Origin: a bacterium
GTDB taxonomy: Bacteria > JAMOTN01
NCBI GenBank assembly: GCA_027062325.1
Contig: JAMOTN010000076.1
Span: 1-16,593, forward strand
Reading direction: 5' to 3'
Length of the DNA stretch: 16,593 nucleotides
Notes under the pieces: generated by a model
Database searches by the model: none
What the model saw: the letters and a program-made list of their open reading frames with translations, nothing else
Told to the model about the DNA's origin: nothing
In this document: positions 3,705-16,593 of the stretch, one piece after another
Layout of the letters: every line of letters begins with the position of its first letter
Numbering within the stretch: position 1 is the stretch's first letter
Program-made: the position numbers and the translations under genes

Positions 3705-3742
3705 TTGGCTAAATTTTCTGGCTGTGCTAAAATAATTATACA
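3705..3742 (+). promoter_or_regulatory. Promoter of the AddB-like gene, predicting a leaderless transcript
   Basis: TTGGCT (3705-3710) and TAAAAT (3728-3733) are separated by 17 bp, a good sigma-A-type match. A start point about 7-8 bases downstream falls at about 3740-3742, on or beside the ATG at 3742, and no Shine-Dalgarno is present. On the other strand a TATAAT (3740-3735) may serve the pilin operon, so this is probably a compact divergent promoter. Confidence 0.5.
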
Positions 3743-5997
3743 TGATAAGGCTTAAAGTAGTTCCAACGGAGATTCAAGCACGCTGGTTCAGATTAAAAAA
3801 GGGAATAGCTGCTTTAAGATTTGATGAGGTTCTATCTTCTTACCTTGCAACTTCTAGTCCGAATGAGGATGTAGTTGATGTTGTTTCCAACGAAGTTTTT
3901 TATCTTTTTCTTTCTGTACTACTTGGTTTCAACTATCTTACGGTTAAGAAGCTATATCTGGCCTATCTAGAAAGTTTAGAAGCTGATAATAATTTATTTG
4001 TTCCCGGTGAGGAGAGGTTATTTGAAATTTTGGAGTTTATTGAGGATGAGTTATCTAAGGCGGGGCTTTATACTCGAAAAAAGTTGATAGAAAAATTAAC
4101 AATTGGAAAATTTGGAAGTCTTGAGTTTTTCACTGGGTTTGAGTACGAGAAGTTTTTCAGACCGTATCGGTATGAGAGAAGATTCTTGGAAAAACTAGGG
4201 GTTTTAAAGCCTGAGTTTAAGGTTGAATTTTATCAAAATGTGAATAAAGCTAAGATATTAGAGTTTTCAAATTCTGCATTTTGTAAGCTTATTGATAGAT
4301 ACTCTGATAAAAGGGTATGTGTGGTTTGCGAGTCTCAAGATGAGTTATTTGCTTTGTGGAGTGCTGCCAGAGTAGCAGTAGAAGTTGAGAATAATAAAGA
4401 TGTTTCAGAGAGTTTGAAGTCAGCCAACTTTGATATATGGTTTGATGTTCCTGATTATGCATCGGCTTTGGTTTACAAGCTACTAGAGATAGCACGTGGA
4501 ATAAATGTGAGAGGATATTTGAAGGATTTTGAAATTTTGAGTTTGAAGGTGGATAAGGATAATCTGCATGATATTCTGACAAGGTTTAAGGATTTCGATT
4601 TAAAATTTGAAAGTTCAACTTTTTTGGAAGAAAAAGGGATTGACCTGTTTGAAAAAAGAAGTAAGGAATTTTTAAAGTTTGCTGCGGAGTTTATGGGAAG
4701 TTTGAGCACAGAGGAGGTAATTGTGGAAAAGTTTGAAAAAGGTTTGGCAAGTTTGAGTGTTTTAATGAGAAAGTTTATCTCAATTTTAAGGCGACTTTTA
4801 ATGAGTAGTGGTTGGCAAAAAATTTTAGATGAGGTCAAAGAAGGAATTGAAGTTAAAAGAAATGAAGTAGATGTCCTTGCTTTGATGAGCCAGCATTTTA
4901 AGAGTAAGACGTTAAAGAGAGCTAAAATACCAACAGGAGATAAATGGTGGTTATTTGTTACTATGCCTGAAGTTGTTAATGTGGACGATGTTGATGTGTT
5001 TGTCTGGGTTAAGCCGAAGGTAGATGTTGATTGGGAACGGCAGTTATTTGCGGCTTCCTACATGAGTCAAAATGCAGATGAGTTTGTAGTATTAACCGAG
5101 AATTATGTACCGGTTTTTCTTTGGAATTTTGGAAGAGAAAAAGATTGGGAGAATTATTCCTTGAATTTGAAAGGTCAGAGGTTGAGAGGTGTGGGTGGGG
5201 TTTCGCATGCTGTGTCAGCGCTGCCTAAAGGATATAAAAGTTGTGTGTTTGCAAACTGGTTGAGCTCCGTAGTTTCGGTAGAAGGTATGTGGGAGTTTAA
5301 AGATACGTATGAACCTGATGAAATAGGGACATATGTCCATAAATTTTTCGAGATGGTGAATAAAGATATTGTGAAACTCCAAGAGAGCGGAGAAATAGGA
5401 GCGTTCTTTAACAATTTTGATAGCTTATGGCAGACTTGGAGAGAGCAGTTTGTAATGGAGACAGGAATAGATTTTGAATGGGAAGTTTGGAGTGCTTTGA
5501 GGCGGTGGGTAGAGAAGTTTGACAAATTTGATAGGATACTTCATGTTGAGGAGGAAAGAGTGGTTAACTTGGCTAAGGTTGCTGAATATTTTGGGGAAAG
5601 TAAAGATGGGTTGGAAAAGTTGGTTGTGAAGATAAGGGTCGACAGGGTTGTGGAAAAAGAGGTAACTTATAGAAGAAAAAACTTAGGGAAGATGATAGTG
5701 GTTCAGGATTACAAATTACGAGTTAGTGATGAGTATTTTCCACAGTTGTTAGTTTACACTTATGCTTTTGAAACTGATGTCTTCGAATTGATAAATGTGC
5801 AAAAGATCTTGGATAGGCGTTTCAGCGATGTTTATAAGCGCTCATTTGTGTCAAAGTTGATGGAGAATGAAAAATTTCAAGCGTTTAAAAAGGCAATGTT
5901 TGATATGTTGCGTTATCAGAAATACGATACTTTGACACTTCTTGGAGAAGAGCCGGATTGCGCTAGGTGTGCCTACCGGTTTTATTGTTGGGATTAA
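3742..5997 (+). CDS. AddB-like PD-(D/E)XK nuclease with four-Cys (Fe-S type) cluster
   Basis: A 751-residue protein. Its C-terminal third carries the RecB/AddB nuclease motifs in order: Cys501 (SCVFANW), His533 (GTYVHKFFE), Asp634 (KIRVDRVV), Asp656 and Lys658 (VVQDYKLR), a QLLVYTYA motif, and C740-x2-C743-x5-C749 at the extreme end. The split pattern of one distant Cys plus three terminal Cys is that of AddB and Cas4, which bind a 4Fe-4S cluster. The N-terminal 500 residues are weakly conserved and helical with no Walker A motif, so they probably form an inactive helicase-like scaffold as in AddB. It is much shorter than typical AddB (about 1100-1200 residues), and no addA is in the window. 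Its likely job is double-strand break end processing with a partner encoded elsewhere. There is no ribosome binding site before the ATG. Confidence 0.75.
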   Translation: MIRLKVVPTEIQARWFRLKKGIAALRFDEVLSSYLATSSPNEDVVDVVSNEVFYLFLSVLLGFNYLTVKKLYLAYLESLEADNNLFVPGEERLFEILEFIEDELSKAGLYTRKKLIEKLTIGKFGSLEFFTGFEYEKFFRPYRYERRFLEKLGVLKPEFKVEFYQNVNKAKILEFSNSAFCKLIDRYSDKRVCVVCESQDELFALWSAARVAVEVENNKDVSESLKSANFDIWFDVPDYASALVYKLLEIARGINVRGYLKDFEILSLKVDKDNLHDILTRFKDFDLKFESSTFLEEKGIDLFEKRSKEFLKFAAEFMGSLSTEEVIVEKFEKGLASLSVLMRKFISILRRLLMSSGWQKILDEVKEGIEVKRNEVDVLALMSQHFKSKTLKRAKIPTGDKWWLFVTMPEVVNVDDVDVFVWVKPKVDVDWERQLFAASYMSQNADEFVVLTENYVPVFLWNFGREKDWENYSLNLKGQRLRGVGGVSHAVSALPKGYKSCVFANWLSSVVSVEGMWEFKDTYEPDEIGTYVHKFFEMVNKDIVKLQESGEIGAFFNNFDSLWQTWREQFVMETGIDFEWEVWSALRRWVEKFDKFDRILHVEEERVVNLAKVAEYFGESKDGLEKLVVKIRVDRVVEKEVTYRRKNLGKMIVVQDYKLRVSDEYFPQLLVYTYAFETDVFELINVQKILDRRFSDVYKRSFVSKLMENEKFQAFKKAMFDMLRYQKYDTLTLLGEEPDCARCAYRFYCWD

Positions 5998-8916: not shown

Positions 8917-8951
8917 CGACAACTTTTATTACCTTGGGGAGGGTGAAGAAG

Positions 8952-9254
8952 ATGGCAAGAAAAGCTCTGGGAATGATTGAAACAAAAGGACTCGTTGCGT
9001 TGATTGAAGCTGCTGATGCTATGGTAAAGGCAGCAAACGTTAAGCTTGTGGGATACAAGACAATTGGTGGTGGATATGTAACTGCTTTGGTGAGAGGAGA
9101 TGTTGCGGCGGTTAAGGCAGCTACTGATGCGGGAGCGGCAGCTGCCCAAAGGATTGGAGAGCTCGTTGCAGTTCACGTTATACCAAGGCCTCATGAGAAT
9201 TTGGAGGATGTATTTCCAATAGGGAAGAGTGAAGAGCTTGAGGATGAGTTTTAA
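8952..9254 (+). CDS. Bacterial microcompartment shell protein, BMC-H (hexamer) type
   Basis: A 100-residue protein that is essentially one BMC domain (residues 3-86). It opens with [20 protein letters not shown], contains the pore-loop region [16 protein letters not shown] (central Gly39-41) and the helix [19 protein letters not shown], and ends with [15 protein letters not shown]. It is closely like PduA/EutM/CcmK, which form hexamers that tile the flat facets of the protein shell and let small metabolites through the central pore. The ATG at 8952 is chosen over the TTG at 8934 because GGGGAGGGTG lies before it and the BMC domain starts there. It has its own -10 box and a strong terminator right after it, so it is probably transcribed alone and at high level. 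Confidence 0.95.
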
Positions 9255-9276
9255 TTAGAAAAAAGCTTTTAATAAA

Positions 9277-9308
9277 GGGGGCAGGTCGCCAGTGCCTGCC
9301 CTTTTTTC
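9277..9308 (+). terminator. Rho-independent terminator after the BMC-H gene
   Basis: A stem GGGCAGG (9279-9285) and CCTGCCC (9295-9301) with a nine-base loop is followed directly by six T (9302-9307). It separates the hexamer gene from the vertex and dehydrogenase genes, though read-through is possible. Confidence 0.88.
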
Positions 9309-9332
9309 GTTAAAAAGAAAGTGGGTAAGCTT

Positions 9333-9338
9333 TATAAT
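9333..9338 (+). promoter_or_regulatory. -10 box before the EutN/CcmL-like gene
   Basis: A perfect TATAAT lies 23 bp before the ATG, downstream of the terminator; the -35 (near 9310, TTAAAA) is poor. Together with the terminator it suggests separate transcription of the second half of the locus. Confidence 0.4.
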
Positions 9339-9360
9339 TCCTTTTTGAGGGGAATGAGGT

Positions 9361-9684
9361 ATGAAAATAGGTAAAGTGGTTGGAAATGTTGTTGCTACTC
9401 GTAAAGATGAGAGATTGAGGGGATTGAAGCTGCTTTTGGTTCAAACTTATAAAATTGACAAAAAAAGTGGGGAAAGTGCGACTTTAAAAGAAACTTCGGA
9501 TTATGTAGTGGCAATTGATACGGTGGAGGCTGGAGCTGGTGAGATTGTGCTTCTTGTTTCTGGAAGTAGTGCACGGCAGACAGATAAAACCAATGGAAAG
9601 CCTGTGGATGCGGCAGTTATAGGAATTTTGGAAGAGGTTAAGTTTTTAGATGGAGATAGAATAATGCTTACAGATCTTTATTGA
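9361..9684 (+). CDS. Microcompartment vertex protein, EutN/CcmL (BMC-P) family
   Basis: A 107-residue protein of the EutN/CcmL/PduN family (Pfam EutN_CcmL), whose pentamers close the twelve vertices of the microcompartment. Family features are the start MKIGKVVGNVVATRKDERL, LKLLLVQ, the central YVVAIDTVEAGAGEIVLLVSGSSAR and the late VDAAVIGILE before a short C-terminal strand. Length and order are those of a complete single-domain member. The ATG follows GAGGGGAATGAGG. Neighbours are the BMC-H gene, behind a terminator, and the aldehyde dehydrogenase 139 bp downstream, with which it may be co-transcribed. Confidence 0.93.
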   Translation: MKIGKVVGNVVATRKDERLRGLKLLLVQTYKIDKKSGESATLKETSDYVVAIDTVEAGAGEIVLLVSGSSARQTDKTNGKPVDAAVIGILEEVKFLDGDRIMLTDLY

Positions 9685-9823
9685 TGTATGGTTCTTGGTT
9701 TGATGTGTGGTAATTTTTAGAGTGGATTTGGGATTCGAGGAAGTTTAGTTTAAGTTGAGATGAGTAGTGAACTGTTGGGGACGTGTGTTGTTGGGGTAGG
9801 ATGGCGTTAAGGAGGCGATAGAG
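9685..9823 (+). other. C-depleted intergenic spacer before the aldehyde dehydrogenase gene
   Basis: This 139-base stretch is unusually long for this locus and contains only 6 C on the plus strand, being made of G, T and A. It holds no convincing ORF, terminator or promoter that I can support. It ends in the ribosome binding site AAGGAGG (9809-9815) of the next gene. Confidence 0.4.
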
Positions 9824-11218
9824 ATGAGTATAAATCTTACTGAGGATAGAATAGACAGCATGGTAAAAGAGGTATTAAAACGTCTTGCTGGGACAGCGCC
9901 TTCCTTTAGTTCTGGGCCCATATTTTCAGATGTGGATAGTGCGGTAGCAGCTGCGAGGCTTGCATTTGAAGAACTTAGAAAGTTGTCTCTTGAGAAGAGG
10001 CGTGAAATTATTGCTGCAATGAGGCGAGCAGCAGCAGAGCATGTCGAGGAGTTTGCAACGATGGCTGTTAAAGAAACGGGATTAGGACGTGCTGATCATA
10101 AGGTAAAAAAGAACATTCTTGCTATTACTAAAACTCCCGGAGTGGAAGATTTAAAATCAGAGGTTTATACAGGAGATCATGGAATGAAATTAGTTGAGCT
10201 TGCTCCGTGGGGAGTTATTGCTTCCATAACGCCATCCACAAATCCAACAGAGACCATAATTAACAATGCTATTGGTATGATAGCGGCGGGGAACAGCGTT
10301 GTTTTTCATCCACACCCGGGGGCGAGGGAGGTTACAAATTACTGCATTCGTGTTCTGCACAATGCAATGATAGAGGTTGGCGCACCTCGTAATTTGATAG
10401 CTAGTGTTGAAAGCCCGACCATTGAGAGTGCTCAACAGCTTATGAATCACAAGGATGTTGATCTTTTAGTTGTTACGGGTGGACCTGCTGTTGTTGCCGC
10501 AGCAATGAAATCGGGGAAGCGTGTGATTGCAGCAGGTCCTGGTAATCCTCCGGTGGTGGTGGATGAGACAGCAGACATAAGGAAAGCTGCCTCGGACATT
10601 GTAGCCGGTGCAAGCCTTGATAACAACATAGTTTGTGTAGATGAGAAGGAAATAATTGCAGTTGATAAAATTGCCGATTCTCTCAAAAAATTCCTGATAG
10701 AAGCGGGAGCTTTTGAAATTCCAGAAAATAAGATTGATGAGCTTGCACGTCTTGTTTTGACTTCTGATGGGCATCCTAACCGTGCTTGGGTGGGAAAAGA
10801 TCCAGAGAAGTTTTTAGAAGCGATAGGTGTAAAAGCTCCGTATAAACCAGAAATTTTAATATGTGAAGTTCCTGCAAACCACCTGTTTGTGATGGAAGAA
10901 TTGTTGATGCCTGTTATTCCACTTGTGCGTGTGCGCGATTTTGAAGAGGCATTGCAGCTTGCAATTGAAGCTGAGGGTGGACGTAAGCACTCTGCAGTTA
11001 TGCACTCACTCAACGTTGCACGACTTCACGAAATGGCTGTTCGTATGAATACGACTATCTTTACCAAGAATGCTCCGAGCACTGCAGGACTTGGATACGG
11101 TGGAGAGGGACCAACAACGTTTACCATAGGCACTACAACCGGTGAAGGAATCACCACAGCCCGCACCTTCACTCGCCAGCGCCACTGCGTTCTGGTTGAC
11201 TATTTCAGGATTGTGTGA
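9824..11218 (+). CDS. CoA-acylating aldehyde dehydrogenase, EutE/PduP type, with N-terminal encapsulation-type helix
   Basis: A 464-residue enzyme that oxidises an aldehyde (acetaldehyde or propionaldehyde in known members) with NAD and CoA to acyl-CoA inside a microcompartment. Evidence: an amphipathic N-terminal segment INLTEDRIDSMVKEVLKRL followed by a Ser/Pro linker, as in encapsulation peptides; a helical region then VELAPWGVIASITPSTNPTE (nucleotide-binding start); VVFHPHPGARE; AAGPGNPPVVVDE; the catalytic Cys271 in SLDNNIVC; and the C-terminal TIGTTTGEGITTARTFTRQR typical of EutE/PduP. Length matches the family. A strong AAGGAGG precedes the ATG. It is the only enzyme of the microcompartment locus in view; the true substrate cannot be read. 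Confidence 0.94.
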   Translation: MSINLTEDRIDSMVKEVLKRLAGTAPSFSSGPIFSDVDSAVAAARLAFEELRKLSLEKRREIIAAMRRAAAEHVEEFATMAVKETGLGRADHKVKKNILAITKTPGVEDLKSEVYTGDHGMKLVELAPWGVIASITPSTNPTETIINNAIGMIAAGNSVVFHPHPGAREVTNYCIRVLHNAMIEVGAPRNLIASVESPTIESAQQLMNHKDVDLLVVTGGPAVVAAAMKSGKRVIAAGPGNPPVVVDETADIRKAASDIVAGASLDNNIVCVDEKEIIAVDKIADSLKKFLIEAGAFEIPENKIDELARLVLTSDGHPNRAWVGKDPEKFLEAIGVKAPYKPEILICEVPANHLFVMEELLMPVIPLVRVRDFEEALQLAIEAEGGRKHSAVMHSLNVARLHEMAVRMNTTIFTKNAPSTAGLGYGGEGPTTFTIGTTTGEGITTARTFTRQRHCVLVDYFRIV

Positions 11219-13807: not shown

Positions 13808-13838
13808 CCTTACTGAGAAAAGTAAAAAAGAGGTGGTA

Positions 13839-15365
13839 ATGGTGAAAATTTTAATAAGGAACTTTGGAAGAAATAATAAACCAACGTTTCATAGATGGGT
13901 TAATTCGGAAAAAACAGATGAAGAGAAAAAGTATCCGTGGGAACCTTTGGTAGAAAAAATAAAGCCGGATTTAATCTTTGCATTTGGCACTTCAGAGACT
14001 GATTGGGAAGTTCTTGAAGAAAGTGTAAAAAGAGTTGGATATTTTGTGGAAGATGAAAAGGAAAAGACAGAGGATGGATTTAAACGAATACTTTTTAAAA
14101 GGGTTTTTGATATACCTGGGTTGCCTAAGGAGTACGAGAGGGTTTTTGTTGAAACTTTCTCTTACATGTTAAACAAGATAAGTGAATTTGAGAAATCATT
14201 GCAGTCTCAGGGTTCTAAGAGGGTAAAAATAGAATTTCATTTGGATTTGACGGGAGGGTTAAGGCAAATTACCACTGTTGTTTTGACTGTGGTAGAGAGT
14301 TTAGTAAATGTTTTGGAGGTTTTTATACCGAATTGTGAAGTAGAAACATTTCATTACTATACTTATCAAGAAGATGTAAAAAGAACGCTGAGAAAGCCAA
14401 ATAAAAGTGATAAAAGTAAAAAGGTTTTGGAAGATGAGGAGATAAGTATCGCGTGCTTTTTTAAAAAACTGCGTGATTCCTTCAAAATTTTGGGAAAAGC
14501 CACATTGAATATTTGGCGTGGAGTTAGGAAGAAAAAATTAGAGGCTGATGAAGTGGGGAATTATGAGGAATGGGGGGATGAAAGCTTTGGAGTTTCTGCT
14601 CCTTCAAAGGAAAAAGAGGAAAACCAAACTTTCACAAGCGTAATATTTACCATAGAGAGTTTGCAGGATTTTTTGGATTTTACGCACCAGGTTTTGATTT
14701 TAAGAAGACATTGGCTCTTTACGTTTAAGAGAGCTACTTTGAAAAAAATGTTCAGAGATGAGAGAATTGCTAAGAAATTTGATAATGCAGTGAGAGAGTT
14801 AGAAAGACTTCTAGTTGGAGCAAGTGTGGGAGATGAAGTAGAAAATCTAGAAAAAATTTCATTTTATTTGGCTGAATGTTTGGAGGAAGTTGGTAATGCT
14901 GCGCCCCCTCTTGCACTTTTAAAGTTGAGGATTTTGAAAAAGATGGTTGACAGCATTTTAAATGAAGTTGAGGATAGAAAGAAAATAAGGGGGGAAATTT
15001 TACTGTATAGAAATGATATAAAGGGTATTGAGAAATTTGCCCAAAAGCTTTACTTCATAGAAAAATTGTATTTATCAGGAAGAGCGGCAATAGCTTTGGT
15101 AAAGTTTACGGCTGCTTTGGAAATTTTGCTTAAAGAAAATGGTTGTTACAATGAAAAGGCTGAAAATAATAAGTATTGGAATTATCCCAAAGTTTACAGA
15201 TTGATAGAAAGAATAGGTCTTGATAAAAACTTGTATCATAGTTTAAGGAATGCTAGAAATAGTTTAGCCCATGATGATGAGAATCCGGCCAAGGTGGTTA
15301 ATTTGAATATGATATTTGAACTTTTGGATGAAGCCATTACTAAACTTAAGAAGGTGTTTTATTGA
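13839..15365 (+). CDS. CARF-HEPN ribonuclease, Csx1/TM1812 (DxTHG) type, CRISPR type III ancillary
   Basis: A 508-residue protein. The N-terminal domain fits a CARF sensor: the start VKILIRNFGRNN, DLIFAFGTSETDW (about residues 44-56), and HLDLTGGLRQIT (134-145), which corresponds to the DxTHG motif that binds cyclic oligoadenylate but reads DLTGG. A charged linker region (about 180-265, with NKSDKSKK and SKEKEENQ) joins a helical part ending in a HEPN nuclease motif RNARNSLAH, where Arg473 and His478 form the Rx4H catalytic signature. Such proteins are RNases switched on by the second messenger of type III Cas10. No Cas10, Csm/Cmr or array is in the window. The ATG at 13839 is chosen for spacing to AGAGGTGG; a GTG at 13833 is possible. 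Confidence 0.82.
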   Translation: MVKILIRNFGRNNKPTFHRWVNSEKTDEEKKYPWEPLVEKIKPDLIFAFGTSETDWEVLEESVKRVGYFVEDEKEKTEDGFKRILFKRVFDIPGLPKEYERVFVETFSYMLNKISEFEKSLQSQGSKRVKIEFHLDLTGGLRQITTVVLTVVESLVNVLEVFIPNCEVETFHYYTYQEDVKRTLRKPNKSDKSKKVLEDEEISIACFFKKLRDSFKILGKATLNIWRGVRKKKLEADEVGNYEEWGDESFGVSAPSKEKEENQTFTSVIFTIESLQDFLDFTHQVLILRRHWLFTFKRATLKKMFRDERIAKKFDNAVRELERLLVGASVGDEVENLEKISFYLAECLEEVGNAAPPLALLKLRILKKMVDSILNEVEDRKKIRGEILLYRNDIKGIEKFAQKLYFIEKLYLSGRAAIALVKFTAALEILLKENGCYNEKAENNKYWNYPKVYRLIERIGLDKNLYHSLRNARNSLAHDDENPAKVVNLNMIFELLDEAITKLKKVFY

Positions 15366-15598
15366 ATTTGAATAAAGTTTTTATTTGAAATTTAATTGAT
15401 GAGTCCCATGATAACAATGATTACTATTCAAAGTTCTAGGACTATGAAGATAACGATACACTTAGAAAATATGTACTGTGGGATAATGCTAGAAAAGAGT
15501 AGGCTAGAAAAAAGTAGGGAAAGCAAGGTGGAAAATTTTAAAAGTTGAGTTTAAATTGCTAAGCACTGTTCAAAATCCTGTGAAAAGTGGAAGAAAAT
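15366..15598. other. Intergenic stretch with a 15-bp tandem repeat and no supported gene
   Basis: No gene longer than about 50 codons is supported. A 49-codon ATG ORF (15399-15548) lacks a ribosome site and has an odd composition. Another frame reads open over KVEFKLLSTVQNPVKSGRKYD (to about 15603) just before the next ORF, as if it were a broken upstream part. Within it GCTAGAAAAGAGTAG (15488-15502) is repeated with one change at 15503-15517. Confidence 0.4.
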
Positions 15599-15865
15599 AT
15601 GATTAAACCCTTTAATAGGGGGGAATGGGGAATTCTTATTGAGGATAAAAATAGGGAGAACCAAAACTGGAAACCTGTTTTATGGGAAGAGGGTGGAAGA
15701 TTCAAATATTATGGTTCTTCTAGAGTCATTACTACTGAGATGAGGGAACCATCGAAGGCATGTTATATAAAGACAAGAGGAACTATTGCTAATGAAGTTC
15801 ACACTTTGAGAAGTGTAAAGGTGAAATTTTATGTGAGAGAACTTCCTGCGGCTAACTGTGGCTAA
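15599..15865 (+). CDS. Unidentified short ORF, probably the intact front part of a decaying gene
   Basis: An 88-residue product from the ATG at 15599 (the in-frame GTG at 15587 is the alternative; GTGGAAG lies before the ATG). It looks like real protein: mixed hydrophobic and charged residues with Trp and Tyr (NRGEWGILIEDKN, WKPVLWEEGGRFKYYG, HTLRSVKVKFYVRE). I recognise no family. The last residues (LPAANCG) break the pattern, and a neighbouring frame continues with protein-like sequence, so a frameshift near 15840 is likely. It lies 230 bp after the CARF-HEPN gene on the same strand, so a link to it is possible but unproven. Confidence 0.45.
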   Translation: MIKPFNRGEWGILIEDKNRENQNWKPVLWEEGGRFKYYGSSRVITTEMREPSKACYIKTRGTIANEVHTLRSVKVKFYVRELPAANCG

Positions 15866-16517: not shown

Positions 16518-16593
16518 TTAAATTTTATTGTCTGTGATGATAAAAACATGTTTTCCCTTATCCGTTAGTAAGTGTTCGGCAATGAAACCAAAA
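16518..16593 (-). CDS. 3' end of an unidentified minus-strand gene (5' part outside window)
   Basis: From the window edge the minus strand reads FGFIAEHLLTDKGKHVFIIT then DNKI and a TAA at 16520-16518. It is open for all 24 codons and has a natural composition, so this is probably the true C-terminus of a gene running leftward into the window. Too little is visible to name it. It converges on the candidate RNA. Confidence 0.5.
   Translation of the reverse strand, partial: FGFIAEHLLTDKGKHVFIITDNKI

Follow-up and report, generated by a model that had tools for sequence, protein, structure and literature searches.

The window, a stretch of 16,593 bases, corresponds to one entire contig (C76) of a bacterial genome assembled into 81 contigs (1.65 Mb, completeness 84%). 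Near its end lies an intact open reading frame on the plus strand that encodes a predicted CARF-HEPN ribonuclease of 508 amino acids, followed by a CRISPR repeat. The features of this region are as follows.

13839-15365, plus strand: gene of the CARF-HEPN protein, stop included (open reading frame call; start region 13830-13842 read directly)
13839-14369, plus strand: CARF-type sensor domain, residues 1-177 (PADLOC, profile against shuffles, hhalign and motifs)
13983-14006, plus strand: GTS loop FGTSETDW, from residue 49 (sequence read-out)
14244-14264, plus strand: CARF ligand motif DLTGGLR, residues 136-142 (alignment to Csx1-family motifs of the DITHGFR type)
14370-14630, plus strand: charged central insert, about residues 178-264 (alignment and composition; inferred extent)
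15012-15362, plus strand: HEPN domain, about residues 392-508 (HEPN structures at Z 7-8 with a low-confidence model, PDLC01825, DUF4145 at E 0.12)
15255-15272, plus strand: HEPN catalytic motif RNSLAH (Rx4H), residues 473-478 (sequence read-out)
16560-16588, plus strand: CRISPR repeat, 29 nt (identity to a nine-repeat array on contig C29)

The ATG at 13839 is directly preceded by the purine-rich stretch GAGGTGG, consistent with its use as the start, and the alternative GTG at 13833 would bring the range of protein lengths to 508-510 residues. The codon-position composition of the gene resembles that of the adjacent genes, and the protein is without a match above the cut-offs of Pfam and NCBIfam. 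A short open reading frame of 92 residues (15587-15865) lies between the gene and the repeat; it resembles, below threshold, the N-terminal domain of AspBHI (E 0.031) and may be the remnant of a gene. Elsewhere on the contig, consecutive microcompartment genes at 8934-11218 encode a BMC shell protein, an EutN/CcmL vertex protein and an aldehyde dehydrogenase, and 3742-5997 encodes a 751-residue, possibly AddB-like protein with a PD-(D/E)XK nuclease domain at its C-terminus.

CRISPR repeat at the contig end

A sequence-only reading of this DNA had described the gene as an orphan with no array within view, a description that does not survive inspection of the final 34 bases of the contig, which include the repeat ATCCGTTAGTAAGTGTTCGGCAATGAAAC (16560-16588), with an expected number of chance matches of zero. 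The repeat lies 1.2 kb downstream of the gene, and the contig stops 5 nt past it. Its 28-nt core has exactly nine further copies in the genome, all of them in a terminal array of contig C29, where cas1 and two cas2 genes adjoin the array. The repeat on C29 measures 35 nt, of which the outermost 6 nt differ in the C76 copy; terminal repeats of arrays often differ. As C76 and C29 are the sole carriers of the repeat in this genome and their ends are compatibly oriented, the two ends probably flank one array. The orphan look of the gene is due to a contig break inside the CRISPR array just downstream. The genome contains cas1 and cas2, an array, and a pair of cas10 genes whose products carry GGDD motifs, which also speaks against the stand-alone RNase that had been proposed. 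More generally, contig breaks at CRISPR arrays can give ordinary effectors the appearance of orphans.

The C29 region has further features of its own. Beside cas1 (L017, 4937-10845) lie five open reading frames of 223-473 residues without any Pfam match, a possible unrecognised CRISPR-linked set. Within the array (L017, 13584-13751) one interval measures 140 nt instead of the usual 72 or so: it lacks a copy of the repeat and contains a 36-nt sequence twice, at a distance of 70 nt. For one spacer of the array an exact match was sought in IMG/VR and not found.

Predicted sensor and nuclease domains, and the insert

The CARF-like N-terminus and the DLTGG sensor motif noticed earlier were both borne out. 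The PADLOC Csx1/Csm6 model matches residues 13-158 (E 1.5e-5), a Csx1-family profile made from family proteins collected in other genomes scores the protein at 26.2 bits where the highest-scoring of 1000 shuffles reaches 10.3, and hhalign against 12 Csx1-family members aligns residues 1-232 with 91% probability (E 9e-7). Homology of the N-terminus to the CARF domain of the Csx1/Csm6 family is thus well supported at the level of sequence comparison. The ligand motif D-x-T-x-[GAS]-[FL]-R is present as DLTGGLR, in which the arginine is retained and the canonical DxTHG histidine at motif position 4 is absent, replaced by glycine at residue 139. Relatives carry DITHAFR, DITHGFR, DITHSFR, DVTHGLR, DITNGLR, DVTQGFR or DITGGLR, so that position 4 is mostly histidine, with one case each of glutamine, asparagine and glycine. 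The glycine form, DITGGLR, occurs in the closest relative, and by this alignment the DLTGG motif appears unusual, not unique. In Synechocystis Csx1 the histidine of this motif matters for cA4 activation: H117D nearly abolishes activation, and the changes H117D and R120A in this motif cut activity to barely measurable levels (PMC9676260). The corresponding histidines of SisCsx1 (H155) and ToCsm6 (H132) are located at the ligand, while residues tied to messenger cleavage are frequently not conserved (PMC6754442). Loss of the histidine would likely result either in a protein that does not cleave its own messenger or in altered affinity for it.

The unusual length and charged linker that had been remarked on were confirmed by measurement. 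DLTGG and RNSLAH are 337 residues apart, compared with 163-286 in the relatives measured. In a weak alignment the family's next conserved stretch falls at residues 269-290, which places the extra sequence at about residues 178-264. This insert of about 87 residues consists to 44% of K, R, D and E. A frameshift or non-coding origin of the insert was rejected, as its codon-position composition and GC are like those of the remainder of the gene.

At the C-terminus, the complete Rx4H motif reported earlier is indeed present near the end of the protein as RNSLAH (of the R-X4-6-H type), which aligns with RNDxxH of the Csx1/Csm6 family. The PADLOC CARF2--CARF_HEPN model PDLC01825 matches residues 436-487 (E 2.5e-4), and a DUF4145 match to the region is weak (E 0.12). 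The score of the HEPN region was reached by no plain shuffle, but by 38 of 2000 shuffles that preserved the motif; at the level of sequence, the HEPN region outside the motif adds no significant signal. Single-sequence AlphaFold models were of low confidence, with a mean pLDDT of 42.6 for the full-length protein and 54.3 for the C-terminal part, and the N-terminus, modelled as helical, was excluded from use. A Foldseek search of the low-confidence full-length model against 350,542 PDB chains returned as its best match 8y7f (probability 0.99, E 0.036), a Marinitoga Csx1-Crn2 structure without the CARF domain. In the fold comparison of the same low-confidence model, the rows covering residues 392-508 alone were mostly HEPN proteins at Z 7-8, a score commonplace among helical bundles. 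A fold search with the C-terminal fragment model alone gave mainly generic helical bundles, and Csx1 was not among the matches listed. The motif and these weak fold matches together suggest a HEPN domain, with the modelled fold supportive of the assignment, not proof of it. Taken with the CARF homology, the motifs support the earlier identification of the protein as a putative CARF-HEPN ribonuclease.

A close relative was not found in any of the collections searched. Among the CARF domains found, the nearest is that of a 713-residue CARF2--CARF_HEPN_CARF protein (PDLC01841) of another genome, G308 (L050, 12656-14794), with about 30% identity across the CARF region. The surrounding region of G308 (10003-16996) encodes three large tandem CARF proteins, one of them fused to a Csx20-like domain. 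Relatives of the CARF-HEPN protein were not found in 385 other genomes, in plasmids and phages by tblastn, in IMG/VR, or, with peptide patterns, in 84,980 species genomes; such patterns reach close relatives only, so that a negative there carries little weight. Scans with the 713-residue protein were also without matches, and a PDB sequence search with the CARF-HEPN protein as single query gave none. One hit in a further genome (G359, L009) proved on inspection to be a UDP-glucose-dehydrogenase-like protein and was taken as chance. Type III effectors in poorly sampled phyla can diverge past the curated cut-offs of NCBIfam and Pfam.

Candidate type III partners and proposed mechanism

That no Cas10 accompanies the gene is correct for its contig, on which no cas protein-coding gene was found, and incorrect for the genome. 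The sequence-only reading had itself proposed a genome search for a Cas10 with a GGDD cyclase motif, and two were found, on contigs C49 and C25, both with the motif intact in their translations. On C49 the protein carries an HD domain as well, and the operon is interrupted by the contig end. The C25 protein is without an HD domain and is grouped with Csm2-, Csm3- and Csm4-like genes and a possible Cas6; this locus (L006, 7346-15636) consists of two divergently transcribed halves and has two csm3-like genes. Adjoining the C25 operon is a gene for a DUF1874 protein (PF08960, E 2.6e-13). DUF1874 is the Crn2/AcrIII-1 family of ring nucleases; enzymes of this kind break down cA4 and are found together with cA4 effectors, Csx1 among them (PMC12409355; PMC7293037). 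The C25 protein of this family is the sole ring nuclease seen in the genome and is of the cA4 type; alternatively, the gene could be a captured viral anti-CRISPR. A second Csx1/Csm6-type effector was not found in the genome with the Csx1/Csm6 model, for which matches were listed to E 1; the only other match, on contig C46, lies, on inspection, in a TPR-like protein. Cyclase loci without an effector tend to be found in genomes that have several type III loci (PMC11229360). That study suggested signalling between loci, with which the combination seen here is consistent: an HD-less cyclase locus without a visible nuclease effector, and an effector encoded elsewhere.

We propose, with a probability of about 0.77, that the protein serves type III CRISPR immunity as a deeply diverged effector of the Csx1/Csm6 type, putatively a ribonuclease activated by cyclic oligoadenylate, most likely cA4, and acting partly in trans. 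We infer the biochemical steps, the identity of the messenger and the service in trans to loci on other contigs. On recognition of foreign RNA by a type III complex, the GGDD palm of Cas10 would synthesise cyclic oligoadenylate, most likely cA4, which would bind the CARF domain of a protein dimer; movement of the CARF domain would then align the two HEPN RNSLAH sites for non-specific RNA cutting, until the response is ended by the DUF1874 ring nuclease, which would degrade the messenger. Against this model stand the glycine in place of the DxTHG histidine, the weakness of the HEPN domain by sequence, the low-confidence models, and the location of the Cas10 genes on other contigs while C76 has only the CRISPR repeat before it ends.

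The same glycine, found where a ligand-binding histidine is expected, opens the possibility that the DLTGG pocket and the insert adapt a type III CARF-HEPN ribonuclease to a messenger other than cA4, such as cA3, cA5, cA6 or another Cas10 product. The DITGGLR relative in its multi-CARF cluster indicates that the glycine form is maintained elsewhere, and related Csm6-2 proteins use cA6 (PMC11229360) and cA5 (PMC13187428). We nevertheless consider this unlikely, given the cA4 type of the one ring nuclease seen in the genome and the natural variation of position 4 within the family (H, G, N, Q). A more elaborate version, which we regard as doubtful, is a lineage-specific effector whose glycine-for-histidine pocket reads a non-cA4 messenger, whose 87-residue insert adds a function (e.g., RNA binding or oligomer formation), and which serves the two type III loci in trans. 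Should the DLTGG pocket prove to bind a ring of another size, that would shed light on what determines CARF specificity.

The lack of cas protein-coding genes on C76, together with the resemblance of the HEPN region in the fold comparison to HEPN toxins of HEPN-MNT pairs, would suit a stand-alone defence or toxin ribonuclease uncoupled from CRISPR signalling; this appears very unlikely in view of the repeat on the same contig, the two Cas10 cyclases, the CARF domains of the family, which are known cyclic-oligoadenylate sensors, and the adjacent genes, among which an antitoxin-like partner was not found. Decay of an effector that has lost sensing and cutting could be read from the lost histidine, the strong divergence and the searches in which a close homologue was not found, but the full-length reading frame, the otherwise intact signature motifs and a codon-position composition like that of adjacent genes make it extremely improbable.

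Comparison with known systems

The proposed type III effector shares with Csx1/Csm6-type ribonucleases (PDLC01032, the CARF2--CARF_HEPN models and the Marinitoga Csx1-Crn2 structures 8y75 and 8y7f) an N-terminal CARF domain with a GT-type loop and the motif DxTxG[FL]R, a C-terminal HEPN domain (here predicted) with RNxxxH, and a host genome with a GGDD Cas10. It departs from them in its histidine-free DLTGGLR, in the charged insert of about 87 residues that follows the CARF domain, and in an overall similarity that is barely detectable. The PDLC01841 protein of G308 has the nearest CARF domain, with DITGGLR in its first unit, but combines two CARF-HEPN units per chain, is without a comparable insert and lies within a cluster of three CARF proteins. 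The fused Csm6-2 (CARF-HEPN-CARF-HEPN; PMC11229360) follows the same CARF-HEPN ribonuclease logic, whereas the protein described here, with one CARF domain and one HEPN motif in 508 residues, would need to dimerise. Its kind is already known, and what is distinctive about it is its divergence, its motif variant and its insert.
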